NCBI RefSeq assembly: GCF_004804335.1
Contig: NZ_SRXY01000004.1
Location: forward strand, 124,001-188,000
From: Pacificoceanicola onchidii
Lineage (GTDB): Bacteria; Pseudomonadota; Alphaproteobacteria; Rhodobacterales; Rhodobacteraceae
Direction of reading: 5' to 3'
DNA length: 64,000 bases
Every line of letters begins with the position of its first letter. The stretch's first letter is position 1. The notes below the pieces were generated by a model. It was not told the DNA's origin. It searched no databases and saw only the letters and a program-made list of their open reading frames with translations. The position numbers were made by a program, and so were the translations under genes. This document shows, piece by piece, positions 50,398 to 63,439 of the stretch.

Positions 50398-50518
50398 AAC
50401 ACTCTGATTAACACTTTGCACCGGATTTTGGAACTTCACAGCGCGTCTTTTCTGACGAACCATGAAGGCGAGGATCAGCTGCGGCCCCGACTTGGACCCG
50501 CAATCATGGGAGAATATC
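50397..50518. promoter_or_regulatory. Divergent promoter region, LysR / proX
   Basis: The 121-base space holds both promoters. A 7-base direct repeat TAACACT occurs at 50397-50403 and 50409-50415 (12-base period) beside the LysR start and could be part of a regulator site. GGGAG upstream of the proX ATG serves as its ribosome site. Confidence 0.4.
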
Positions 50519-51475
50519 ATGAAACACTTCACCAAATTCGCGCTGGCAACAGCCCTGTCTGCAGCACTGGCCGCTCCCGTCATGGCCAACGATATGCCTG
50601 GCAAAGGCGTCACGGTTTCGCCGATCAAGGGCTCACCTGCCAATGCCTGGTTCCAACACATGGTTGTGCAATTGGGTCTCGAGGCACTGGGCTATGAAAT
50701 GGAGGAAACGCTCGAAGCCGACTTCCCAGCGGTGCACCTGGCTGTTGCCTCGGGGGACGCGGACTACACGTTCAACCATTGGAAACCCCTGCATAACGGG
50801 TTCTTTGACAAGTCCGGCGGCGAGAGCGTTATGACCCGCGTGAATCCGGCGATCAAAGGGGCGGGCCAAGGGTTCTTCATGGATAAGAAAACAGCCGAAG
50901 CCAATGGTATCACCAGCATCCAACACCTGAGCGACCCGGCAGTGGCCGCCCTGTTTGACGCAGACGGGGATGGGCGTGCGAACCTGTCGGGCTGCAACCC
51001 CGGTTGGGGCTGCGAGATTGCTATCGAAGATCATCTCGACAACTTGAAGCTACGCGACACGGTGCAGCACGACCAGGGCAGCTATTTCGCAATCATGGCT
51101 GACACGATCACTCGCTATAACGAAGGCGGCGCAATCCTGTATTACACTTGGACCCCGAATTGGATCAGCGACGTGCTGTTGCCGGGAACCGATGTGGTGC
51201 AGATTGGTGTGCAGGATGGCGGCGATCTCGCCCCGGGTTTTGCTGTGAACGACGTCTACATCGTCGCCAACAACGACTTCCTTGAAGACAACCCTGTCGC
51301 GGCGAAGTTTTTCGAACTGGTCGACATTCCGATTGGAGCCGTGAACGCAGCGCAAGTCAAACTGCGCGACGGGGAAAACTCTTTGGACGACTTCCGCCGC
51401 CACGCTGAAGATTGGGTTGCCGCCAACCAGGCGACTTTTGATGGCTGGGTTGCCGAAGCCGCCAAAGCCAACTGA
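50519..51475 (+). CDS. proX: Glycine betaine/choline ABC transporter substrate-binding protein, ProX type
   Basis: The 318-residue periplasmic protein has a signal peptide (residues 1-23, SAALAAPVMA). Like E. coli ProX it has the GCNPGWGCE motif and the three tryptophans of the betaine cage (W88, W163 and W211 here). They lie in NHWKPLHN, PGWGCE and YYTWTPNW, so the ligand is a quaternary amine, most likely choline, glycine betaine or choline-O-sulfate. Start: ATG at 50519 with GGGAG upstream. The other importer genes follow. Confidence 0.9.
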   Translation: MKHFTKFALATALSAALAAPVMANDMPGKGVTVSPIKGSPANAWFQHMVVQLGLEALGYEMEETLEADFPAVHLAVASGDADYTFNHWKPLHNGFFDKSGGESVMTRVNPAIKGAGQGFFMDKKTAEANGITSIQHLSDPAVAALFDADGDGRANLSGCNPGWGCEIAIEDHLDNLKLRDTVQHDQGSYFAIMADTITRYNEGGAILYYTWTPNWISDVLLPGTDVVQIGVQDGGDLAPGFAVNDVYIVANNDFLEDNPVAAKFFELVDIPIGAVNAAQVKLRDGENSLDDFRRHAEDWVAANQATFDGWVAEAAKAN

Positions 51476-51492
51476 TACCTCCCTGCAACTCC

Positions 51493-51522
51493 CGGGCGCG
51501 GTGTTCTCCGCGCCCGCTTTTT
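51493..51522 (+). terminator. Hairpin terminator/attenuator between proX and proV
   Basis: Perfect 9-bp stem CGGGCGCGG-tgttct-CCGCGCCCG followed by CTTTTT, 17 bases after the proX stop. Because proV, proW and betC are downstream on the same strand, it probably allows partial read-through and gives more binding protein than transporter, a common arrangement for ABC importers. Confidence 0.85.
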
Positions 51523-51538
51523 CGAAGGGAACAGCGCC

Positions 51539-52558
51539 ATGAGTGAAGCGCAAATCGAATGCCGTGATCTGTGGAAGATTTATGGGCGCAGGGCCGACGA
51601 GGCCATGAAGGCGGTTTTGTCCGAAGGGTTGAGCAAAGAAGAGGTGCGCGACCGGTACGACTGTGTTCTCGGTGTGCGCGACGCCAGCTTCAGCGTCAAA
51701 AAGGGCGAGATCTTCTGCATCATGGGCCTCTCGGGCTCGGGCAAATCCACGCTGGTGCGCCATGTAAACCGGCTGATTGAGCCGACATCGGGCGAGATCC
51801 ACGTTGCGGGCCAGCGCGTTGACACAATGAACGAAAACCAGCTGCGTCAGCTCCGGGCAGAAACAATCGGCATGGTGTTCCAGCATATGGCGCTCTGGCC
51901 GCATCGCACCTTGGGCGACAATGTCGGCTTCGGTCTTGAAGTTCGAGGGGTCGACCTGGAGCAACGCCGCAAGGCATCCGAAATAGCACTTGAGGCGATG
52001 GACCTCGGCGGTTGGATCGACCACTACCCAGATCAGCTGTCGGGTGGCATGCAGCAACGGGTGGGTCTTGCGCGCGCATTGGCCGCCGACCCGGAAATCC
52101 TGTTAATGGATGAACCCTTCTCGGCGCTTGATCCCCTGATCCGGCGGCAGTTACAGGACCAGTTCCTCGACCTTTCGGCGCATATGGACAAGACCACGCT
52201 GTTCATCACCCACGATCTCGACGAGGCGATCCGTATGGGTGATCACATTGCCATCATGAACGATGGCGAGATCGTGCAGATCGGCACGCCTGAAGAGATC
52301 GTGACCAACCCCAAAGACGACTACGTCGCTGAATTTGTCAAAGGCATCAGCCGCGTTGGTCTGGTCCGTGCGGAAACAATCATGGACAAGCTCGACGGGC
52401 GCGAGCCCACCGGAAAACAGGTCGGGCTCAACGCTGAACTGGGCGAGATCATCGAACATTTCATGGAAGATCAATCACCCGTCACCGTGATCAGCCCGGA
52501 TGGGCCTGCGGTGGGGCAGATCACCATCAAATCCGCCCTGACGGCCTTGCGCGGATAA
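51539..52558 (+). CDS. proV: Glycine betaine/choline ABC transporter ATP-binding protein, ProV type
   Basis: The 339-residue NBD has Walker A GLSGSGKST and signature LSGGMQQRVGLARALA, with FITHDLDEAIRMGDHIAIM. The N-terminal segment between helix and Walker A (GRRADEAMKAVLSEGLSKEEV) is a ProV feature. The C-terminal region of about 60 residues does not look like a full pair of CBS domains, so osmotic gating as in OpuA is uncertain. It follows the proX hairpin and precedes proW by 10 bases. Confidence 0.92.
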   Translation: MSEAQIECRDLWKIYGRRADEAMKAVLSEGLSKEEVRDRYDCVLGVRDASFSVKKGEIFCIMGLSGSGKSTLVRHVNRLIEPTSGEIHVAGQRVDTMNENQLRQLRAETIGMVFQHMALWPHRTLGDNVGFGLEVRGVDLEQRRKASEIALEAMDLGGWIDHYPDQLSGGMQQRVGLARALAADPEILLMDEPFSALDPLIRRQLQDQFLDLSAHMDKTTLFITHDLDEAIRMGDHIAIMNDGEIVQIGTPEEIVTNPKDDYVAEFVKGISRVGLVRAETIMDKLDGREPTGKQVGLNAELGEIIEHFMEDQSPVTVISPDGPAVGQITIKSALTALRG

Positions 52559-52568
52559 GGAGACGATC

Positions 52569-53486
52569 ATGGAACTCTGGAACATTTTCGACACCGAATG
52601 GGTCCCGGTCGGCGCGTGGGTCGAAAGCCTGCTGCAATGGGTCGTAGCCAACTTCCGCTTTATCTTTCAGGCGATCAAAGTCCCGTTTGACATTGTTCTG
52701 ACCGGCCTTGAAGACGGGCTGACCCAAGCACCGGACCTCTTGATCCTGACGCTCATCGTGCTGGTTGCCTGGCAAGCAGGTGGCCGCAGGCTGGGTCTGA
52801 TCTCGCTGGCCTGCATGACGGCCATCGGGTTGATGGGCGCGTGGGAAGAAAGCATGACCACGCTCTCCATCGTTCTGACCTGCGTGGTATTCTGCTCGCT
52901 GATCGGGATCCCTCTGGGCGTGGTTGCAGCCAAGAACAATCGGTTCTGGATGATCCTGCAGCCGCTTCTCGACTTGATGCAGACCATTCCATCCTTCGTT
53001 TATCTCGTGCCTATCGTGATGCTGTTTTCTATCGGCAACGTTTCGGGCGTGATTGTGACCTTCATCTACGCCCTGCCACCGGTGGTGCGTCTGACCAACC
53101 TCGGCATCCGACAGGTGCGCGCCGACATGGTCGAAGCCGCGCGGGCCTTTGGCGCCTCGAACCGCCAAACGCTCTACAAGGTAGAATTGCCACTGGCGAT
53201 GCCCACGATCATGGCGGGTGTGAACCAGACAATTATGATGGCGTTGTCGATGGTTGTCGTCTCCTCGATGATCTCGGTGACGGGTCTGGGCCAGATGGTG
53301 CTGCGCGGCATCGGGCGTCTCGACATGGGGCTGGCGACGGTTGGCGGGCTGGGCATTGTCTTCCTCGCCATTGTCATCGACCGCACCTCGCAAAGCTTCG
53401 GTATCTCCGCGCGCGATCGCGGGCACAAGAAATGGTACGAGACCGGCCCCGTTGGCGCTGTCCGTGGCCTGATGAAGAAGGGATAA
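52569..53486 (+). CDS. proW: Glycine betaine/choline ABC transporter permease, ProW type
   Basis: The 305-residue permease has the ProW N-terminal amphipathic part and the MetI-type core: PLLDLMQTIPSFVYLVPIVMLF, EAA loop ADMVEAARAFGASNRQTLYKVELP, and the final hydrophobic segments. It pairs with ProV and ProX for uptake of quaternary amines. The betC gene starts four bases after its stop. Confidence 0.92.
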   Translation: MELWNIFDTEWVPVGAWVESLLQWVVANFRFIFQAIKVPFDIVLTGLEDGLTQAPDLLILTLIVLVAWQAGGRRLGLISLACMTAIGLMGAWEESMTTLSIVLTCVVFCSLIGIPLGVVAAKNNRFWMILQPLLDLMQTIPSFVYLVPIVMLFSIGNVSGVIVTFIYALPPVVRLTNLGIRQVRADMVEAARAFGASNRQTLYKVELPLAMPTIMAGVNQTIMMALSMVVVSSMISVTGLGQMVLRGIGRLDMGLATVGGLGIVFLAIVIDRTSQSFGISARDRGHKKWYETGPVGAVRGLMKKG

Positions 53487-53489
53487 GCC

Positions 53490-54983
53490 ATGACGGATCG
53501 CCCAAACATTCTGTTCATCCAAGTCGATCAGCTTACTGCCGGAGCCTTGCAGTCATACGGCGACAATATCTGCCACGCGCCGACTTTGGATGCCCTGGCC
53601 AATAACGGCGTCGTCTTCGAGAATGCCTACTGCAACTTCCCGCTTTGCGCCCCATCTCGGTTTTCCATGGCCACAGGGCAGCTCGCAGGCAAGGTGGGCG
53701 CCTATGACAATGCGGCGGAATTCTCGGCCGAAATCCCGACCTATGCCCATTACCTTCGCGCCGCTGGGTATCAGACTGCGCTTTCGGGCAAAATGCACTT
53801 CATCGGTCCGGATCAATTTCACGGCTTTGAAAAGCGCCTGACGGCGGATCTCTATCCCGCTGATTTTGCCTGGGTTCCAAACTGGGGCAATGAAGGCAAG
53901 CGGGACACCAACGATCCAAGGGCGGTGCGCATTGCAGGCATCTGCGAGCGCTCGGTGCAAATCGACTATGACGAAGAAGTTTCGTTCAAGGCAGTGCAAC
54001 ACATCTTCGACGTTGCGCGCTCAGACGACGACCGCCCCTTCTTCCTTCAAGTGTCCTATACGCACCCTCATGAACCCTATCTCTGTCGCAAAGAGTTTTG
54101 GGACCTCTACGAGGGCAAGGACATTCCCATGCCGAGCGTGGGCGCTCTGCCGGAACAAGAACACGATCCACACTCTGCGCGCCTACTGAAGGATTTTGGC
54201 ATGCTTGGCATCCAGTTCAGCGATGAGGACATTCAACGGGCCATCCGCGCATATTACGGATCCATCAGCTTCATCGACTCTTTGGTTGCCCGTGTTCTGA
54301 ATGCACTGCGGGCCACGGGAGCAGACAAGAACACCATCATCCTGTTCACCTCGGACCATGGTGAGATGCTGGGGGAGCGCGGCATGTGGTTCAAGAAGCA
54401 CTTCTTCGAGAAATCCCTGCGCATCCCCCTGATCATGTCTGGCCCCGGCATCGCCCCTCAAAGGGTGCAGGAACTGACGTCACTCGTCGATCTGGTGCCG
54501 ACCTTCAACGCAATTGCGGGAGTTGAAGAGGAAAGCGAACCACTGGAGGGAGTCGATCTGGCAACTTTGACCGACTGTGGCAATCCTGAACCGGCACGTG
54601 CTGTCTATGCAGAGTATCTCGCTGAAGCCACTCCAGTGCCAATATTCATGATCCGTCGTGGCCCCTACAAATTCATCTCATCGTCACACGATGGAGAACT
54701 ACTGTTTAACCTCACCAACGACCCGGACGAGCGCGTCAATCTTGCTACTGTCGCTGAGCATCAGGAGGTTGTCTCCCGTTTTCGACAGGAGGTCGCCGAG
54801 AAATGGAACGAAGAAGAGCTCACCCGTGACATTCTGTTGAGCCAAAAACGCCGGGCAGTCGTACGTGACGCCATGGGTAAAGGTGAAAAACAACGCTGGA
54901 ACCACGGGGAAAGCAGCAAGGATCAAGTCATCTGGTATCGCGGTGAGCAAGGCTACAATGAGTGGGCGTTTGAGTATATCTGA
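53490..54983 (+). CDS. betC: Choline-sulfatase
   Basis: The 497-residue sulfatase has the formylglycine motif C-A-P-S-R at residues 53-57 (LCAPSRFSMATG), the metal Asp pair near residue 13, and TSDHGEMLGERGMWFKKHFFE. The choline-sulfatase C-terminal region (FRQEVAEKWNEEELTRDILLSQ) and the KMHFIGPDQFHGFE loop match BetC. It hydrolyses choline-O-sulfate to choline and sulfate. It is in one unit with proXVW, so the importer may bring in choline-O-sulfate itself. No anaerobic maturase is nearby. Confidence 0.92.
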   Translation: MTDRPNILFIQVDQLTAGALQSYGDNICHAPTLDALANNGVVFENAYCNFPLCAPSRFSMATGQLAGKVGAYDNAAEFSAEIPTYAHYLRAAGYQTALSGKMHFIGPDQFHGFEKRLTADLYPADFAWVPNWGNEGKRDTNDPRAVRIAGICERSVQIDYDEEVSFKAVQHIFDVARSDDDRPFFLQVSYTHPHEPYLCRKEFWDLYEGKDIPMPSVGALPEQEHDPHSARLLKDFGMLGIQFSDEDIQRAIRAYYGSISFIDSLVARVLNALRATGADKNTIILFTSDHGEMLGERGMWFKKHFFEKSLRIPLIMSGPGIAPQRVQELTSLVDLVPTFNAIAGVEEESEPLEGVDLATLTDCGNPEPARAVYAEYLAEATPVPIFMIRRGPYKFISSSHDGELLFNLTNDPDERVNLATVAEHQEVVSRFRQEVAEKWNEEELTRDILLSQKRRAVVRDAMGKGEKQRWNHGESSKDQVIWYRGEQGYNEWAFEYI

Positions 54984-55533: not shown

Positions 55534-55875
55534 TTAATCGCAAGCGGCATATACGATGAATTCGACCTTGTATTTTTCTTTTGCCAGTTTTGCCTCTCCA
55601 CAGGCCCGTGCAGGGGCATGTCCTTCGGGTACCCACGCGTTCCAAACCTCATTCAGGCCGTCAAAATCGCTCATATCGGCAAGCCAGATCGTAACGCGCA
55701 GCAGCTTTTCACGTGAGGAACCTGCCCGCTCCAGAAGATCATCCACGTTCTTCAGGCAGGCACGGACCTGATCCTGGATGGTGTCGCCTTCGGCTACCTG
55801 CCCGGTCAAATAGGCAACACCGTTGTGTTTCACGATTTTGGACGACCGTATACCGGTGTCAATGCGTTCGATCAT
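55534..55875 (-). CDS. RidA family protein (enamine/imine deaminase)
   Basis: The 113-residue protein is a RidA/YjgF-type trimeric protein: KHNGVAYLTGQVAEGDTIQDQ, RVTIWLADMSDFDGLNEVW and the conserved C-terminal ARACGEAKLAKEKYKVEFIVYA (Arg and Glu of the active site). Such proteins hydrolyse enamines and imines from PLP or oxidase reactions. Start: ATG at 55875 after GGAAAG. It is divergent from the LysR/aldehyde dehydrogenase/BCCT locus and may remove reactive imines formed there. Confidence 0.85.
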   Translation of the reverse strand: MIERIDTGIRSSKIVKHNGVAYLTGQVAEGDTIQDQVRACLKNVDDLLERAGSSREKLLRVTIWLADMSDFDGLNEVWNAWVPEGHAPARACGEAKLAKEKYKVEFIVYAACD

Positions 55876-55982
55876 TTCAGTTGCTTTCCTTGTGCATGAC
55901 TGATGGGGCGACATCGCCCTCGGATGACGGCTACATGGACTTGAGGGGCGCCTTAAGGCAAACGTAAAAAAGTGAAAAGTAA

Positions 55983-55997
55983 TTCAGGAGGGCTGAA
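55983..55997. promoter_or_regulatory. LysR-type box 1, TTCAG-N5-CTGAA
   Basis: A dyad matching the T-N11-A rule (T55984 to A55996), overlapping the ribosome site AGGAGG of the second LysR gene. A near-identical site is at 56882-56898. Binding here would suit autoregulation. Confidence 0.5.
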
Positions 55998-55998
55998 G

Positions 55999-56901
55999 TT
56001 GACGATCAAGCTGGAAATGCTCAAATACTTCGTGGCTGTAGCACAGCATGGCAGCCTGTCCGACGCCGCCGATGCTTTGGGGCGCACGCCTTCCGCGGTC
56101 TCGATGATGCTCAAGCAATTCGAAGTTCACATCGGCGCGCCCTTGTTTGAGACCGCGCGGAAATCCCGGCTGACCCCGCTGGGAGAAATGGTGTTCGAAG
56201 AAGCCCGGCGCGAGGTTGGGCATTTCGAAAACACGGTTTCGGTTATCGAAGGAATTTCACGCGCGGAAATGGGGTATCTCAGATTGGCCGTCACACCGTC
56301 GATCGCGACAGCGATATTGCCGAAGGTCATTCACGAATTCACGGCGCATCATCCCAAGGTCCAGATCGATATTCGGGACATGGATTCGGAAGCGATTGCC
56401 CGGGAACTTCTCAGGGGTCGGGCCGATATCGGGATCGGGTCTCTTCCCCAATTTGAAGGCATGGCCCGGCAAGAGCTGTTCAGTGATGCCTTTGGGGTGG
56501 TCTGTCGCAAAGACGATCTGCTGGCGCGGGACTGGCCGCAACTGACATGGACCAAGATGGGCAAGGTCAATCTGATCGCCAACGGCCTTTGCGAACAGAT
56601 CACCGACCCTGGTTTCGTCCAGTTGCTGACCACATCGCGCCTGCGGGTACCTAATACCACGACCCTGTTGGGGCTGGTACGAGAGGGGGTGGGCATCACT
56701 ATCCTGCCCCGCCTTGCGGTTTCCGGCCTGGTGGACGATCTTGCTTTTCTGCCCCTGACCGACGTGACCGCGCGGCGCAGCGTTTTCATGGTCTCCGCCC
56801 CTAAAAACATTCTGATGCCTCCTGCCAAAGCGTTTCAGGCCACCATCACCAAGATGATGCGCGACGGGAGCTTTCCTCAAACTTCAGAAGGACTGAAGTA
56901 A
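55999..56901 (+). CDS. LysR family transcriptional regulator of the aldehyde dehydrogenase/BCCT locus
   Basis: The 300-residue regulator has the LysR N-terminal helix-turn-helix (KYFVAVAQHGSLSDAADALGRTPSAVSMMLKQFE) and effector domain. Start: a TTG at 55999 eight bases after AGGAGG is preferred (LTIKLEMLKYF); a GTG at 55972 is possible but has no such site. It is divergent from RidA and in line with the aldehyde dehydrogenase, M19, BCCT and DUF3726 genes, and is the likely pathway regulator. Confidence 0.87.
   Translation: MTIKLEMLKYFVAVAQHGSLSDAADALGRTPSAVSMMLKQFEVHIGAPLFETARKSRLTPLGEMVFEEARREVGHFENTVSVIEGISRAEMGYLRLAVTPSIATAILPKVIHEFTAHHPKVQIDIRDMDSEAIARELLRGRADIGIGSLPQFEGMARQELFSDAFGVVCRKDDLLARDWPQLTWTKMGKVNLIANGLCEQITDPGFVQLLTTSRLRVPNTTTLLGLVREGVGITILPRLAVSGLVDDLAFLPLTDVTARRSVFMVSAPKNILMPPAKAFQATITKMMRDGSFPQTSEGLK
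56882..56898. promoter_or_regulatory. LysR-type box 2, CTTCAG-N5-CTGAAG
   Basis: Perfect 6-base arms with T-N11-A spacing (T56884 to A56896), at the end of the LysR coding region and 84 bases before the aldehyde dehydrogenase start. It differs from box 1 at two of 17 positions. A looser dyad TTCAAT-N12-ATTGAA follows at 56904-56927. Confidence 0.5.
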
Positions 56902-56981
56902 ATTTCAATTATTTCTGAGTGATTGAAGTCAGCCAGTCCTGTAGCCCCGATTATGACCAGAACGTATTCAGGGGAATTCTC

Positions 56982-58430
56982 ATGCAGGAATTGGGCCGCA
57001 ACTTTATCGCCGGCGAGTGGGTCGAAGGTGTTTCGACCGTCGAAAATCGCAACCCTTCGGATCTGAGCGATCTGGTGGGCCTATTCGCACAGGCCGGGAC
57101 GGACCAGCTAGAGGCGACGCTGGATCAGGCGCGACGTGCTCAGGCGGAATGGGCCGCCTATGGCATGGAACGCAAACAGGCGGCTCTGATGGCGATCGGT
57201 AACGAGCTGATGGCGCGGGCCGAGGAGCTGGGCACTTTGCTGAGCCGCGAAGAGGGCAAGCCGCTGGCTGAAGGCAAGGGCGAGGTTTACCGCGCGGGTC
57301 AGTTCTTTACCTATTACGCGGCAGAATGCCTGCGCCAACTGGGCGAGAACGCCGATTCTGTTCGGCCAGGCGTGGAAATCGACGTGCGCCGCGAGGCGGT
57401 TGGCGTGGTGGCCATCATCTCGCCGTGGAACTTCCCGACCGCCACCGCATCCTGGAAAATCGCTCCAGCGCTGTGCTACGGCAATGCCGTTGTCTGGAAA
57501 CCGGCCAACATCACCCCGGCATCTGCCGTGGCCCTGACCGAGATCATTGCGCGTCAGGACATTCCCAAGGGACTGTTCAGCCTTGTCATGGGCTCGGGCC
57601 GCGAGATTGGTCAGCAGCTGGTCGAAAGCCCGAAGGTCAACGCCATCTCCTTCACCGGCTCGGTGCCGGTCGGCAAGGGCATCGCCGCCGCAGCGATCCA
57701 GAACCTGACCAAGGTGCAGATGGAAATGGGGTCCAAAAACGCGCTGGCGGTGATGGATGACGCCGATATTGATCTGGCTGTTTCACTTGCACTGGGCGGT
57801 GCCTTTGGCGGCACCGGTCAGAAATGTACCGCGTCCTCCCGGCTCGTTGTTCACCAAGCCGTGCATGATGCCTTTGTCGAAAAACTGGTGGCAGGCACGA
57901 AAGCCATGAAAGTGGGCCACGCGCTCGGCGAGGGGACCCAGATGGGCCCGGTGGTCAGCCAGCAGCAATTGGAAGAAAACCTTGCCTATGTGGCCTTGGG
58001 CAAATCCGAAGGCGCCGAACTGGCCTGCGGTGGCCAGCGCCTTGAGATGCCCCATGAGGGCTTCTACATGAGCCCCGGTGTGTTCCTGAACACCACCAAC
58101 GACATGCGGATCAACCGCGAAGAGATGTTCGCGCCCCTGACCAGCGTGATCAGTGTCGGCAGCTATGACGAAGCTCTGAGCGTGGTCAACGACACCAATT
58201 TCGGCCTCACCTCTGGCATCGTCACGCAGTCTTTGGCACGTGCCACCGATTTCCGCCGCAACGCCCGGACCGGCGTTGTCACTGTGAACCTGCCCACCGC
58301 AGGCACCGATTATCACGTGCCATTTGGAGGACGCGGCGACAGCTCCTACGGCCCACGGGAACAGGGCAAAGCCGCAGCTGAATTCTACACCACAGTCAAA
58401 ACCGCCTATATCAGCGCCGGGGCCGTTTGA
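56982..58430 (+). CDS. Aldehyde dehydrogenase, 2,5-dioxovalerate (ketoglutarate semialdehyde) dehydrogenase-like
   Basis: The 482-residue enzyme has catalytic Cys 282 in GQKCTASSR and Glu 248 in MEMGSKN. The KGSADH-type stretch MEMGSKNALAVMDDADIDLAV and IISPWNFPTATASWKIAPALCYG are present. It probably oxidises a semialdehyde produced in catabolism. Start: ATG at 56982 with GGGGAATTC upstream. It is the first structural gene after LysR and is translationally coupled to the M19 gene (TGATG). Confidence 0.88.
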   Translation: MQELGRNFIAGEWVEGVSTVENRNPSDLSDLVGLFAQAGTDQLEATLDQARRAQAEWAAYGMERKQAALMAIGNELMARAEELGTLLSREEGKPLAEGKGEVYRAGQFFTYYAAECLRQLGENADSVRPGVEIDVRREAVGVVAIISPWNFPTATASWKIAPALCYGNAVVWKPANITPASAVALTEIIARQDIPKGLFSLVMGSGREIGQQLVESPKVNAISFTGSVPVGKGIAAAAIQNLTKVQMEMGSKNALAVMDDADIDLAVSLALGGAFGGTGQKCTASSRLVVHQAVHDAFVEKLVAGTKAMKVGHALGEGTQMGPVVSQQQLEENLAYVALGKSEGAELACGGQRLEMPHEGFYMSPGVFLNTTNDMRINREEMFAPLTSVISVGSYDEALSVVNDTNFGLTSGIVTQSLARATDFRRNARTGVVTVNLPTAGTDYHVPFGGRGDSSYGPREQGKAAAEFYTTVKTAYISAGAV

Positions 58431-59404
58431 TGCGGATCGACGGTCTTCAATATGCGAACTGGTCTGAGAAGATCTTTCGCCAACTGCGCGAAGGGGGCGT
58501 GGATGCGATCCACGTCACCATCGCCTATCACGAGACCTTTCGCGAAACGGTTCTGAATTTTGAACAATGGAACCGTTGGTTCGAGCAATACCCTGACCTG
58601 ATCATGAAGGCGCAGTGGGCCACCGACATCGACAAGGCACGCGAAACCGGGCGCACGGCTGTGTTCTTCGGCTTCCAGAACCCTTCGCCAATTGAGGATG
58701 ACATCGGGTTGGTCGAAATCGTTCACACCCTTGGTGCGCGTTTCATGCAGCTGACCTATAACAATCAGTCGTTGCTGGCGACCGGCTGTTACGAGGATTA
58801 CGACGCAGGCCTGACCCGTATGGGGCGGCAGGTTGTCCGCGAGATGAACCGAGTAGGGCTGGTGGTGGATATGAGCCATTCTGGCGACAAATCTACAATC
58901 GACGCCGCAGACTATTCGGACCGCCCAATCGCCATCACCCACGCAAACCCGCATGAATGGTCGCCCGCGCTGCGCAACAAGAAAGACGACGTGATCCGTG
59001 CAGTGACTGAAAACGGTGGCATGTTCGGGTTCTCGATCTATCCGCACCACCTGAAAGGCAAGTCTGACTGCACGCTGGAAAGTTTCTGCGAGATGATCGC
59101 GCGCACAGCGGACAAATACGGGGTCGAACATCTCGGGATCGGCACCGACCTGTGCCAGGACCAGCCCGACAGCGTCGTGGAATGGATGCGTGTTGGTCGC
59201 TGGACCAAGGAAATCGACTATGGCGAAGGTTCGGCCAGCGCACCGGGCTTCCCGTCGATGCCGCATTGGTTCGAGGACAACCGGCACTTTGGAAACATCG
59301 AAAACGGCCTGCGTGCCGTCGGAATGAGTGACAGTGAAACCGCCGCCATCATGGGCGTAAATTGGTACCGTTTTTTTGAGGAGAACTTTGTTCCGCAAGC
59401 ATAA
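58430..59404 (+). CDS. M19-like (renal dipeptidase family) hydrolase with altered metal ligands
   Basis: The 324-residue protein has the M19 fold: VDMSHSGDKST, ITHANPHEW and the GIGTDLCQDQP segment, giving two His and the Asp of the metal site. But the N-terminal HxD ligand pair is absent (start RIDGLQYANW), and the bridging Glu is replaced by Gln in FFGFQNPSPIED. This matches a divergent subgroup seen near glycine-betaine catabolic genes in Pseudomonas. A true dipeptidase activity is doubtful. Start ATG at 58430 overlaps the aldehyde dehydrogenase stop by one base. Confidence 0.83.
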   Translation: MRIDGLQYANWSEKIFRQLREGGVDAIHVTIAYHETFRETVLNFEQWNRWFEQYPDLIMKAQWATDIDKARETGRTAVFFGFQNPSPIEDDIGLVEIVHTLGARFMQLTYNNQSLLATGCYEDYDAGLTRMGRQVVREMNRVGLVVDMSHSGDKSTIDAADYSDRPIAITHANPHEWSPALRNKKDDVIRAVTENGGMFGFSIYPHHLKGKSDCTLESFCEMIARTADKYGVEHLGIGTDLCQDQPDSVVEWMRVGRWTKEIDYGEGSASAPGFPSMPHWFEDNRHFGNIENGLRAVGMSDSETAAIMGVNWYRFFEENFVPQA

Positions 59405-59473: not shown

Positions 59474-61018
59474 ATGTCGGAAGCATCTATGGAAACAAAC
59501 GTTCAGAAAAGCAGTGTGAACACACCGCTGTTTTTGATTTCAGGGGGCTTTATAGCTCTGTTTTGCCTTGCAGCGCTGATCAATCTTGATGCGTTGTCGG
59601 CGGCTGTGGATTGGGGCTTCAATGTCGCGGCCACCTATTTTGGTCTATATTGGCAGGTCCTGCTTCTGGCGACCTTCCTGATCGGCCTCGTGCTTTGCGT
59701 TCTGCCCGGTGGGAAAGCGATCATGGGCAACCTGGCGGCACCTGAGTTTTCGTTGTTCCAATGGGGATCGATGATCATGTGTACCCTGCTTGCCGGGGGT
59801 GGTGTGTTCTGGGCAGCTGGTGAGCCAATCGCGCACTTCCTCTACTCGCCGCCGCTCTATGGCGCTGAGGGGGGAACCCAGGCCGCCGTGAACCCGGCCA
59901 TTGCACAAAGCTTCATGCATTGGGGCTTTCTGGCATGGGCGATCCTGGGATCGCTGTCGACGGTCATGTTGATGCACTACCACTACGAAAAGGGTTTGCC
60001 GCTGGCACCGCGAACGCTGCTTTACCCACTGTTTGGCGACAGGGCGATCAACGGTCCTATCGGACTGATCGCGGACGCAGCGTCGATCATCGCTGTGGTT
60101 GCCGGGACTGTTGGCCCCATCGGGTTCCTGGGGCTTCAGGTGAGCTATGGTCTGTCGGACCTGTTCGGCATTCCGGATGTTTTTGCCACTCAGCTTGTCG
60201 TCATCGGCGGCCTTGTCGCGATCTACACGATCTCGGCGATGACCGGCTTGTCGCGCGGCATTCAGCTCTTGTCAAAGATCAACGTGATCCTTGCAGGCGC
60301 TCTGTTGGTCTTTGTCCTGCTGGCAGGCCCGACTGGCTTCATCTTCGGGTCGTTCCTCTCGGGCTTTGGCACCTATCTGGGCAACTTCTTCCAGATGGCG
60401 CTGTTCCGCGGGGATGCAGGTGTCTTTGGCGAACCTGGCTGGCTTGGCTGGTGGACCGTGTTCTTTTGGGGCTGGTTCATGGGGTATGGCCCACTGATGG
60501 CGATGTTCATCGCTCGGGTTTCACGCGGCCGTTCAATCCGTTCGATTGTCATTATGCTGTCGATCATCGCGCCAATCGTGACCAACTTCTGGTTCACCAT
60601 CATCGGTGGTACCGGCATCGCGATGGAACTGGCCGAGCCTGGCACCGTCTCGACCGCGTTCGAAGGTTTCAACCTGCCTGCGGCGCTGCTGGCGATAACC
60701 GGCAACCTGCCGATGGGCTTTGCGATCTCGATCCTGTTCCTGATCCTGACAACTATCTTCGTGGCCACGACCGGTGACTCGATGAGCTACGTCATCTCTG
60801 CCACCATGGGCGACAGCGACAACCCGTCAACCGGCGTGCGCGTTTTCTGGGGTATCGCAATGGGTGTAATGGCCGTCATCCTGATCTCGGTTGGCTCGGG
60901 CGGTGTGTCCAAGCTGCAAAGCTTTATCGTCGTCACCGCCGTGCCGGTGTCGCTGATCCTGTTGCCGTCGCTGTGGGATGCTTTGCGCATCACCTTGGCC
61001 AAAGGCAAAGAAAGCTAA
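59474..61018 (+). CDS. BCCT family transporter (betaine/carnitine/choline type)
   Basis: The 514-residue protein has about twelve membrane segments. The BCCT hallmark TM8 region WWTVFFWGWFMGYGPLMAMFIARVSRGRS is clear, and a helix FMHWGFLAWAI corresponds to the aromatic ligand-box helix. Instead of the usual GIG-type ion site it has AGGGVFWAAGEPIAHF. It should import a quaternary-amine zwitterion with Na+ or H+. An AAGGAGGGG site precedes the ATG. The gene ends 6 bases before a perfect 12-bp hairpin. Confidence 0.92.
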   Translation: MSEASMETNVQKSSVNTPLFLISGGFIALFCLAALINLDALSAAVDWGFNVAATYFGLYWQVLLLATFLIGLVLCVLPGGKAIMGNLAAPEFSLFQWGSMIMCTLLAGGGVFWAAGEPIAHFLYSPPLYGAEGGTQAAVNPAIAQSFMHWGFLAWAILGSLSTVMLMHYHYEKGLPLAPRTLLYPLFGDRAINGPIGLIADAASIIAVVAGTVGPIGFLGLQVSYGLSDLFGIPDVFATQLVVIGGLVAIYTISAMTGLSRGIQLLSKINVILAGALLVFVLLAGPTGFIFGSFLSGFGTYLGNFFQMALFRGDAGVFGEPGWLGWWTVFFWGWFMGYGPLMAMFIARVSRGRSIRSIVIMLSIIAPIVTNFWFTIIGGTGIAMELAEPGTVSTAFEGFNLPAALLAITGNLPMGFAISILFLILTTIFVATTGDSMSYVISATMGDSDNPSTGVRVFWGIAMGVMAVILISVGSGGVSKLQSFIVVTAVPVSLILLPSLWDALRITLAKGKES

Positions 61019-61023
61019 AAAAC

Positions 61024-61053
61024 ATGATGGGCACCTGTCCGGGTGCCCATCAT
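61024..61053 (+). terminator. Hairpin after the BCCT gene
   Basis: A perfect 12-bp stem ATGATGGGCACC/GGTGCCCATCAT with loop TGTCCG. The following bases (ACCCTGTTTGTCC) form a weak T tract, so it may be a partial terminator or a processing site within the operon. Confidence 0.65.
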
Positions 61054-61124: not shown

Positions 61125-62798
61125 ATGAACGCAACTTCGCTCCGCGACCCACGACTTGTCATGCGCTTGTCCCGGCTGGGATCGATGCATCAATGCCGCC
61201 TGAGTTTCATGCGTGTGCTGACACGCCGCATGGCCGAGGAAAACTGGTCTTTCGCGCGTCCGAAGTTCGATATTGATGAAAACGGTGTCGGTCATGCCGT
61301 CTATGTGGCGCAGGGACCTGAACGCGCCTATTCGCTGGTTGCGTTTGCCCATGATTTGCCGCCCGAGATGCGGTCAGACCGGGTGATTGCCACCGCGTGG
61401 GACGCCACCTTTACCCTATTTGACGGCATCCCGACGGAGGACGACATCGTGCGTCTGTCGCAAAATGTCCCTTATCAGGAAGCAGGTCGCGTGACCGAAA
61501 AAGAGCTTTCGGTTTCGCGTGCCAACCGCTCGGTGCGCCTGTGGGAGCATTTTGTCGATGCGCTGTCACGGGGCCACCAGCCCGACGCCGACAAAATTGA
61601 GGCTGTAGGCTACCTGATGCGCACAACAGCCGTTTACGGATCCGGGAAACTGGGGGCCTCGGACTATGGCGCCATTTCCGACCGGCCCGAATTCGCCGTG
61701 CCTTTCCAGGTCGAGATGCTTTCGGTTTTCCTGACCCGCGCCTTTGTGCGCGATCTGGTCAATCATATGGCGCAGATGCGTGGCGGCGACAGCGCCGTCG
61801 CTATGTCGCGGGAAATTGCCCATGGTCTCGGGATCGGCAACTCGACCGGCCTTGGTCTGGGGCCTTTCATCATCAACCACCCCTTGTTGTTCAACAACTG
61901 GATCATGGCGCGCGAGGAGGCGATTGCACGCGTGCGTTCGGTCGAGACCGTATCGCAGGAGGAGCGGAACCAATTCCATGAAGTATTGCAGCGTAGCCTG
62001 ATTTCGGTTTCTCGATGGAAGTCTGAGCACCCGGTGCAGATCGAACGGCTGACCGCCTTGCGAGCCGATATCGACCTGCTAAAGCAGCATCTTGCAAACG
62101 GCGCGCTGGACACGACCTTCCCGTGGGACAAGCTGGTGACATGGAGTGAACAGGAGCTGAGCGAAGAAGGGCAGGAATATGTGGCCTCTCTGATCCTGGA
62201 ACCCTATAGCGATCTTGTCGATGATCTTGCGTCATCGATGTCCGACATCGATCCGGACACGTTCCGCATCGACGGCAGCTTGTCGGTTGATGAAATGCGC
62301 GCGCTGATCGAAGCAAGGTTCGGCTGGGCTTTGAACCTGGATTGGGGTGCCACGGAAAACTGTGCCCGAGCATGGTATGTATCAGCCGAAAAGCTGGAGC
62401 CTCGGGTGGGCGAGCGGTTCGAAGAGCCGATTTCCCAATTCGAAATCCCGCTGGCCCCCGCCCGTGATGCCGTCGCTGCTCATGCGGAGTTGCGCAATTG
62501 GGAGGGCACCAAGCCGATTGCAGAATTCCTGCTGCGCCACCCTGAGCATCGGCACACGATCCGCCGCGCACAGATCGGAGCCAATGCGCCCTACAGCGAG
62601 ATCAACGACAATACAATTTCGTCCGAACTGTTCCCTGTCGATCTTTTGCGGGTCAAGCTGGCGTTCTTCGGCGCCACGCAATTCTCCCCCCGGTCTGATC
62701 GTTGGGTGCGGATTTGCATGTACGGCAATGCGCCATACCCAGAAGATCTGACCAACAGCGACGCAGATCTGTGGGTCTACCCGGAGGTGACAGCATGA
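61125..62798 (+). CDS. Protein of unknown family, coupled to DUF3726 gene
   Basis: A 557-residue cytoplasmic protein I do not recognise. No signal peptide or membrane segment. Conserved-looking glycine-rich stretches are TTAVYGSGKLGASDYG (about 176-191) and GLGIGNSTGLGLGPFIINHP (about 246-265), with many acidic residues in the C-terminal half. ATG at 61125 with AAAGG upstream. Its TGA overlaps the DUF3726 ATG (ATGA), so the two should be a functional pair. It lies downstream of the BCCT gene and may be the enzyme that starts breakdown of the imported amine; that is inference. Confidence 0.8.
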   Translation: MNATSLRDPRLVMRLSRLGSMHQCRLSFMRVLTRRMAEENWSFARPKFDIDENGVGHAVYVAQGPERAYSLVAFAHDLPPEMRSDRVIATAWDATFTLFDGIPTEDDIVRLSQNVPYQEAGRVTEKELSVSRANRSVRLWEHFVDALSRGHQPDADKIEAVGYLMRTTAVYGSGKLGASDYGAISDRPEFAVPFQVEMLSVFLTRAFVRDLVNHMAQMRGGDSAVAMSREIAHGLGIGNSTGLGLGPFIINHPLLFNNWIMAREEAIARVRSVETVSQEERNQFHEVLQRSLISVSRWKSEHPVQIERLTALRADIDLLKQHLANGALDTTFPWDKLVTWSEQELSEEGQEYVASLILEPYSDLVDDLASSMSDIDPDTFRIDGSLSVDEMRALIEARFGWALNLDWGATENCARAWYVSAEKLEPRVGERFEEPISQFEIPLAPARDAVAAHAELRNWEGTKPIAEFLLRHPEHRHTIRRAQIGANAPYSEINDNTISSELFPVDLLRVKLAFFGATQFSPRSDRWVRICMYGNAPYPEDLTNSDADLWVYPEVTA

Positions 62799-63439
62799 CA
62801 TTCGCATTGATCGAAGTAGAAGCCATGGCCAAGAAAGCCGCCCGCGGAGCCGGTTACGGCTGGGGTATGGCCGAAGAAGCCGCCAAGGCCACCCGTGCGC
62901 TCTGCGCTGTGGGTCTTGACGGCGTCGCCGCGCTCGCAGCTGCCTTGACCTCTGTTGACGGGAAAAACCTCTCTGAGGTGAGACCATCGACACTTAGTGG
63001 AGACTGGCGTGGAGAAACGGGGGCCCTCTGCCCTGTATCAACGGGCGCAGCGCTTTCAGATAGTGTTCAGATCTGGGCCAAAGAAGGTAAGCGGATCACA
63101 AACATCAACGTTCCTGTTCTACTCGTTCCTTTTGCCATGAATGCTGCGCGCCATCACGGCCAAACAGTGACGCTGACATGGGGCGGTTCCCAAGTCGTGA
63201 CCGACGGTTCGTCAGTGGATGTCTCATTGGACCATGAGTACAAAGAGAACGAGATTGCGGACATGGCAACCGTCAGGGTCGGAGGGCAGTTGACCTCTCC
63301 CAGCGCATCTCATTTCCGTTCAGCACCAGCAGCCGACGATTGGAAAACGCTGTGTGATCTGGCACAGCGCACCTACGCCCCGGACACCGAGGAATCCCGG
63401 CGCAAGGGTGCAGGCGCGGGGCTGACCGACAACGACTGA
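62795..63439 (+). CDS. DUF3726 domain-containing protein
   Basis: The 214-residue protein matches DUF3726 (PF12525): the N-terminal IEVEAMAKKAARGAGYGWGMAEEAAKATRAL is characteristic. A soluble protein rich in Ala and Gly with no known activity. It overlaps the 557-residue gene by four bases with a strong GGAGGT site upstream, and the two probably act together. It is the last gene of the BCCT locus. Confidence 0.78.
   Translation: MTFALIEVEAMAKKAARGAGYGWGMAEEAAKATRALCAVGLDGVAALAAALTSVDGKNLSEVRPSTLSGDWRGETGALCPVSTGAALSDSVQIWAKEGKRITNINVPVLLVPFAMNAARHHGQTVTLTWGGSQVVTDGSSVDVSLDHEYKENEIADMATVRVGGQLTSPSASHFRSAPAADDWKTLCDLAQRTYAPDTEESRRKGAGAGLTDND

Follow-up and report, generated by a model that had tools for sequence, protein, structure and literature searches.

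The DUF3726 protein of Pacificoceanicola onchidii and its constant 557-amino-acid partner: a conserved gene pair in a putative catabolic operon for a betaine-type compound

Background

Among the enzymes that open pyridine rings are flavin oxygenases whose product is passed to an amidohydrolase, as with TgnAB in trigonelline degradation and the oxygenase of the vitamin B6 pathway. Hydrolases of the M19 family cleave amide bonds, and RidA proteins hydrolyse imines. A homarine operon, homABCDER, was reportedly described by Ferrer-Gonzalez et al. (2026, Nat Microbiol 11:1531) from Rhodobacterales, SAR11 and SAR116, and its product is said to be N-methylglutamate. A passage of another 2026 paper (PMC13390433), which cites Ferrer-Gonzalez et al., gives the N-methylglutamate dehydrogenase Mgd a part in homarine catabolism. 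DpkA serves as an imine reductase for making N-methylated amino acids. It is placed in the Ldh_2 family by PMC3527362, where two catalytic histidines (His44 and His116 of AllD) are given as invariant in that family.

The gene pair described here lies in a stretch of 64,000 nucleotides (the window) of the Pacificoceanicola onchidii genome (GCF_004804335.1, contig NZ_SRXY01000004.1, positions 124,001 to 188,000). We call the gene for the 557-amino acid protein X, and the adjoining gene for a 214-amino acid DUF3726 protein Y; the same letters are used for the proteins. An operon present in marine Alphaproteobacteria, rhizobia and some Gammaproteobacteria has this pair as its undefined core. Our literature search found neither a description of this operon nor a mention of DUF3726. 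Like homABCDER, as that operon is reported, it has five conserved genes and a regulator (LysR-type here) and occurs in marine Alphaproteobacteria; a difference is that the window copy has no adjacent Ldh_2 gene, and a RidA gene in its stead. If the two operons are the same, the role is already known and the enzyme core may be the remaining question. The present analysis adds the Ldh_2-like fold of DUF3726, the fusions of X with Y, the conserved tail of Y and the tie to M19 proteins.

Results and Discussion

General features of the locus

The features of the operon are collected in Table 1. For the aldehyde dehydrogenase (ALDH) of the window the nearest NCBIfam models are ketoglutarate-semialdehyde types, which score below cut-off. 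Just upstream of the operon (50462-54983) is a choline-O-sulfate cluster consisting of a ProX-type binding protein, ABC ATPase and permease frames (identified from their translations) and then a choline-sulfatase (TIGR03417, 597 bits versus a cut-off of 433). An inverted repeat, GGGCACC...GGGTGCCC (61029-61048), separates the BCCT gene and X and is perhaps an intra-operon terminator or attenuator.

Table 1. Position of the operon genes and of the sequence elements of X and Y in the window
Feature	Position	Strand	Basis and remarks
RidA family protein (imine/enamine deaminase type), divergent	55534..55914	-	PF01042
LysR-type regulator	55972..56901	+	PF03466/PF00126
Aldehyde dehydrogenase (ALDH)	56919..58430	+	PF00171; true start may be slightly downstream
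M19 "membrane dipeptidase" family protein	58427..59404	+	PF01244, 242.8 bits versus cut-off 26
BCCT betaine/carnitine/choline-type transporter	59474..61018	+	PF02028
X	61125..62798	+	557 aa; ATG 61125, TGA 62796-62798; no named family; proposed catalytic subunit
X aa 172-182, GSGKLGASDYG	61638..61670	+	G174 and G177 invariant in 29 relatives
X aa 236-248, GIGNSTGLGLGPF	61830..61868	+	G236, G238, N239 and G244 invariant in 29 relatives
GGAGGT, likely ribosome-binding site of Y, inside 3' end of X	62783..62788	+	six bases before ATG of Y
ATGA overlap, Y start and X stop	62795..62798	+	read in the sequence; -4 spacing in 68/79 related loci
Y	62795..63439	+	214 aa, DUF3726; fold like Ldh_2 (observed on the 39% identical L073 relative); catalytic histidines of that family absent
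Y aa 1-40, aligns with N-terminus of Ldh_2 proteins	62795..62914	+	hhalign
Y C-terminal tail, GAGAGLTDND	63407..63436	+	conserved; low confidence in the L073 model

The genome contains a second X-Y pair (L003 7636-9794, G000:C1), the X of which is 47% identical to that of the window. It adjoins a GntR regulator and a zinc alcohol dehydrogenase; no M19 gene was found beside it, and a second M19 gene is located elsewhere in the genome. In one relative (L136) the counterpart of this second pair is accompanied by an M19 gene and an acyl-CoA dehydrogenase-like gene. Searching the genome with the operon's own profile brought up a single Ldh_2 gene, which lies on the contig of X at a distance of about 98 kb.

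X belongs to a widespread family

No Pfam or NCBIfam family scored above its cut-off against X, and membership of a family in either was rejected. When 29 diverse relatives of X were compared with the same families a single DUF3726 match resulted, in the fusion protein L039, the only row with a Y part; the eight other families listed were at E ≥0.03. Sequence relatives of X and Y in the PDB were likewise sought, and there were none below E 0.04. The sequence-only reading had labelled the 557-amino acid protein an orphan, a label which does not survive the finding of at least 581 relatives in genome contigs in addition to the second pair of the same genome. X was detected in 27 of the 190 genomes of a sample of the class and in 22 of the 299 genomes of a sample of the phylum, and a SAR116 genome (L122) is among the matches listed. 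Two copies are unusual: that at L131 8519-10630 (G084) has an insertion of about 135 residues separating two well-aligned parts, and that of L030 (G077) is full of in-frame stops and is probably a pseudogene or the product of poor sequence.

X and Y form a unit

The ATGA overlap and the strong GGAGGT site, both named when the sequence-only reading described a two-gene unit, are read directly in the DNA. In 68 of 79 loci Y begins four bases before the end of the X stop codon, a count biased towards overlap by taking for each Y the start codon nearest the X stop; the 79 are the loci with Y found out of 80, the contig of the remaining one (L121) ending soon after X. Judged from these sequences, the layout is more than chance. 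The stoichiometric co-production that had also been read from it is more than gene overlap alone can show.

The distribution of the two genes is equally close. DUF3726 occurs in 21 of the 190 genomes of the class sample, all 21 also possess X, and no more than about 50 bases separate X from any of the 22 places at which DUF3726 was found in them. The six X-containing genomes which gave no DUF3726 match have split, cut or distant copies; one of these (G084) does contain an undetected Y, ending in GAGAGQIDND. As far as these genomes go, the pairing is obligate or nearly so. Furthermore, X and Y are clearly fused in Mesorhizobium sp. 131-2-1, giving a single protein of 814 amino acids. The distant genome G057 specifies a protein of 868 amino acids in which X occupies residues 27-561 (E 3e-130); its residues 603-852 resemble Y weakly, with i-E 1.2e-5 when 13 sequences were searched with profile A7 and no match with profile A3. 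No relatives of the fusion were found in viral contigs. When two otherwise adjacent genes are fused, this argues well, if indirectly, for a complex, and because X and Y are fused in two relatives, one clear and one weak, and adjacent otherwise, a physical X-Y complex is likely. With these data the two genes can be regarded as a real unit.

To approximate the complex, X and Y of L073 (Pseudovibrio) were modelled as one chain from a joint alignment of 3 joined, 14 X and 55 Y rows. The model has a pLDDT of 86.8 and a pTM of 0.76, with low confidence in the stretch 423-446 and in the C-terminal tail.

Gene neighbourhood across relatives

Gene order in the relatives points to a conserved operon of LysR, ALDH, M19, X and Y, often with an Ldh_2-family oxidoreductase (Ldh) or RidA gene and commonly with a betaine-type transporter. 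Counted by BLAST in 80 related loci, some of them cut by contig ends, the neighbours of X are Y (79), M19 (77), ALDH (55), LysR (50), Ldh (31), BCCT (15), a betaine ABC permease (6) and the alpha gene of sarcosine oxidase (5). In 25 of these loci, again including stretches cut by contig ends, no ALDH was found near X; for Ldh the number is 49, or 47 with looser limits. M19 is near X in 17 of 20 class-sample loci, being absent from L129, L134 and L145.

The plasmids of Aliiroseovarius, Ruegeria sp. TM1040 and Phaeobacter porticola carry the genes in the order LysR, ALDH, M19, X, Y and Ldh, together with BCCT, which is interposed in two of them, and all three loci adjoin a four-gene cluster of the sarcosine-oxidase type. 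A glycine-betaine ABC transporter replaces BCCT in Shinella and Aminobacter. The Phaeobacter inhibens stretch has RidA, LysR, ALDH, M19, X and Y, with neither Ldh nor a betaine transporter. X and Y are TM1040_RS02335 and TM1040_RS02340 in Ruegeria sp. TM1040, and PGA1_RS19010 and PGA1_RS19015 in Phaeobacter inhibens DSM 17395, on whose plasmid X has one further match. The relatives in S. meliloti and M. ciceri are in other gene contexts; since these differ, the substrate cannot be one compound throughout, and X-Y may act on several.

In L036 (16864-17970, Phaeobacter inhibens, opposite strand) and in L127 (11315-12421, a genome of 1.4 Mb) Y is shortly followed by a gene that annotation or scoring identifies as DMSP demethylase. 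In an Acidimicrobiales MAG (L103 6780-7817) a luciferase-like monooxygenase gene is upstream of M19, the usual place of ALDH.

Y has an Ldh_2-like fold

Y matches DUF3726 (PF12525) with 69.8 bits against a gathering cut-off of 22.1. The Pfam model is of 73 positions and covers only amino acids 6-67 of the protein. Beyond it, we describe here a conserved C-terminal tail, the constant partner X and a fold like that of Ldh_2 proteins. With respect to the tail, GAG is present within the last 16 residues of all 74 Y proteins compared and 55 of them end in DND, making it one of the best conserved parts of Y.

The fold was observed on the Y portion of the L073 chain, to which the window Y is related by 39% identity. 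This portion is confidently modelled, the means of 10-residue blocks being pLDDT 90-98 over residues 571-760, with 59 and 46 for the last 20 residues. In the VIA comparison it matched 15 Ldh_2-type entries (Z 11.4-14.4, rmsd 3.1-3.9 over 165-193 residues), the next row having a Z of 4.8. The titles of these entries name malate, lactate, ureidoglycolate, sulfolactate or diketogulonate dehydrogenases or reductases, piperideine-carboxylate reductase, or plain dehydrogenase. Foldseek also ranked the Ldh_2 family first, with a probability near 1 and E values of 0.03 or above, none being below 0.001. At the sequence level the first 41-46 residues of Y were aligned by hhalign with the operon's own Ldh_2 proteins (E 1.6e-4 and 4e-4, each for a single pair comparison; probability 50 and 35), and PF02615 (Ldh_2) gave no match to Y at E up to 1. 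To the earlier statement that DUF3726 is without known function can thus be added a structural match, to Ldh_2-type dehydrogenases.

Y shares its fold with the Ldh_2/L-sulfolactate dehydrogenase-like family (PF02615), which includes ureidoglycolate dehydrogenase and delta1-piperideine-2-carboxylate reductase; unlike that family it is short, has no match to PF02615 and possesses no conserved histidine, none being found in ≥85% of the 74 Y proteins. With 214 amino acids against 335 in the Ldh_2 protein of L037 it is shorter by about 120 residues, so that part of the NAD(P)H cofactor site is probably missing. The fold taken with the lack of a conserved histidine and the shorter length suggests that Y is probably a non-catalytic partner derived from a dehydrogenase, a relative of the Ldh_2 fold which we do not class as a member of the enzyme family.

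Conserved residues and predicted structure of X

Both of the glycine-rich stretches that the sequence-only reading had picked out in X exist and contain residues invariant in the 29 diverse relatives (Table 1). The invariant polar residues are S27, R86, D93, R122, S136, R138, Y163, R166, R205, N239, E351, W417, Y418, S420, E425, R427, R481, R509 and R529; no His or Cys is conserved among these relatives. The nine invariant arginines suggest that X binds a strongly anionic ligand, for example a dicarboxylate or a phosphate-bearing cofactor. The structure prediction proposed for X in the sequence-only reading yielded a confident model (pLDDT 89.9, pTM 0.91) built from 80 sequences. A convincing structural match was not obtained with it: Foldseek gave no PDB match at E ≤0.001 (best 0.36), the best VIA match had a Z of 4.1 with an rmsd of 4.9 over 122 residues, and the best E value against a viral library was 0.17. 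A match to a single domain could escape such searches with a protein of more than 400 residues, and we make no claim of a new fold. No flavin, haem or metal fold was recognized in these searches.

Proposed function

Among the neighbours tested, and leaving Y aside, M19 is the most closely tied to X, so that X-Y most simply makes the amide substrate of the M19 enzyme. The betaine transporter and ALDH suggest that a methylated compound is imported and that its carbon chain goes through an aldehyde stage. We tentatively propose, at a little below an even chance, that X-Y is a two-subunit enzyme whose substrate is an N-methylated ring acid, probably homarine; by opening the ring it would give M19 an amide to hydrolyse.

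According to this proposal X and Y would form an obligate two-subunit enzyme in which X is catalytic. Y would be descended from, or at least share the fold of, an Ldh_2-type dehydrogenase. It would have shed the catalytic histidines, and part of the cofactor region probably with them, and would now be a structural or lid subunit with a conserved glycine-rich acidic tail. The operon would be catabolic, and the methylated betaine-type compound imported for it would most likely be homarine (N-methylpicolinate). X-Y would open the N-methylated ring to give an N-formyl (or other N-acyl) enamide with a semialdehyde, ALDH would oxidize the aldehyde and the M19 hydrolase would cut the amide. The resulting N-methyl imine would undergo reduction to N-methylglutamate by the Ldh_2 enzyme where one is present, or would be hydrolysed by RidA, as in the window. 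Homarine as the substrate is a lead, given by the reported work on homABCDER. The chain of N-methylglutamate is one carbon shorter than the ring plus carboxylate of homarine, so that a formyl group split off by hydrolysis of the amide would be consistent with M19. The proposed logic is that of the trigonelline and vitamin B6 pathways, where ring opening gives an amide from which a hydrolase then frees a short acyl group; X has no recognized relation to their flavin oxygenases. If X-Y does open homarine or related N-methyl compounds, it is one of the enzymes by which an algal osmolyte is turned over. A structural origin could be assigned to DUF3726, and X may represent an undescribed fold and chemistry.

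With no conserved His or Cys, X is easier to reconcile with a cofactor-free hydratase or lyase than with an oxygenase, and X-Y may instead be a heteromeric enzyme of this betaine pathway which opens no ring, for instance a hydratase, isomerase or lyase acting after a first oxidation or on non-cyclic methylated amino acids (carnitine-like). One distant relative, found with M19, an ABC transporter, an aminotransferase, a semialdehyde dehydrogenase and two RidA genes, also speaks for such an enzyme. If the substrate is cyclic, however, no other common gene looks fit for opening the ring or for making the amide of M19, and we consider this alternative somewhat unlikely.

That the pair has no catalytic activity and assists the pathway enzymes as scaffold, chaperone or sensor, for instance by tethering M19 and the Ldh_2 enzyme, appears distinctly improbable: an Ldh_2-like Y devoid of catalytic histidines is what a scaffold subunit might be, but the nine arginines, Asp93, Glu351 and Glu425 of X are invariant in a manner typical of an active site, and in more than half of the 80 loci no Ldh gene was found near X. 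That Y is the regulatory heterodimer partner of a neighbouring Ldh_2 enzyme, with X a separate enzyme, would suit its fold and the Ldh_2 gene 3' of Y in many operons, but it is very improbable given those same loci with no near Ldh gene, the presence of X in every DUF3726 genome and two fusions that both link Y to X and none to Ldh.

To return to ring opening by X-Y, oxygen-using cleavage by X would have to proceed without a known cofactor, since there is neither a conserved His or Cys nor a recognized flavin, haem or metal fold. Also counting against the proposal are the loci with no ALDH found near X, the lack of M19 beside the genome's second copy and in three class-sample loci, the differing contexts in S. 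meliloti and M. ciceri, the Phaeobacter inhibens stretch with no betaine transporter and a RidA/Ldh exclusion that is not significant on the tree (see below). A bolder version, which we think unlikely, makes X a new structural class that opens N-methylated heterocyclic acids with no conserved His or Cys and, for that reason, with none of the usual metal, haem or iron-sulphur centres, and that needs a decayed-dehydrogenase subunit whose former partner surface holds X.

RidA, Ldh and a proposed imine step

RidA and Ldh were in no case found together near X in the 80 loci (9 with RidA only, 33 with Ldh only, 38 with neither; Fisher p 0.009, uncorrected), nor in 32 other loci (3, 14 and 15, respectively; p 0.24). 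After correction for descent with a quick tree the exclusion is not significant, with a median p of 0.25 when all rows are taken and of 0.125 when those with ALDH are. This test comprised five independent pairs on well-supported branches, and Ldh never changes in the same direction as RidA; the genome's own second copy and L033 were excluded from the pair test, and the RidA label of L042 is from annotation, not BLAST. The pattern is in agreement with an imine intermediate that would be either reduced or hydrolysed. In L073, L123 and L126 RidA is located just 3' of Y, at about the usual place of Ldh.
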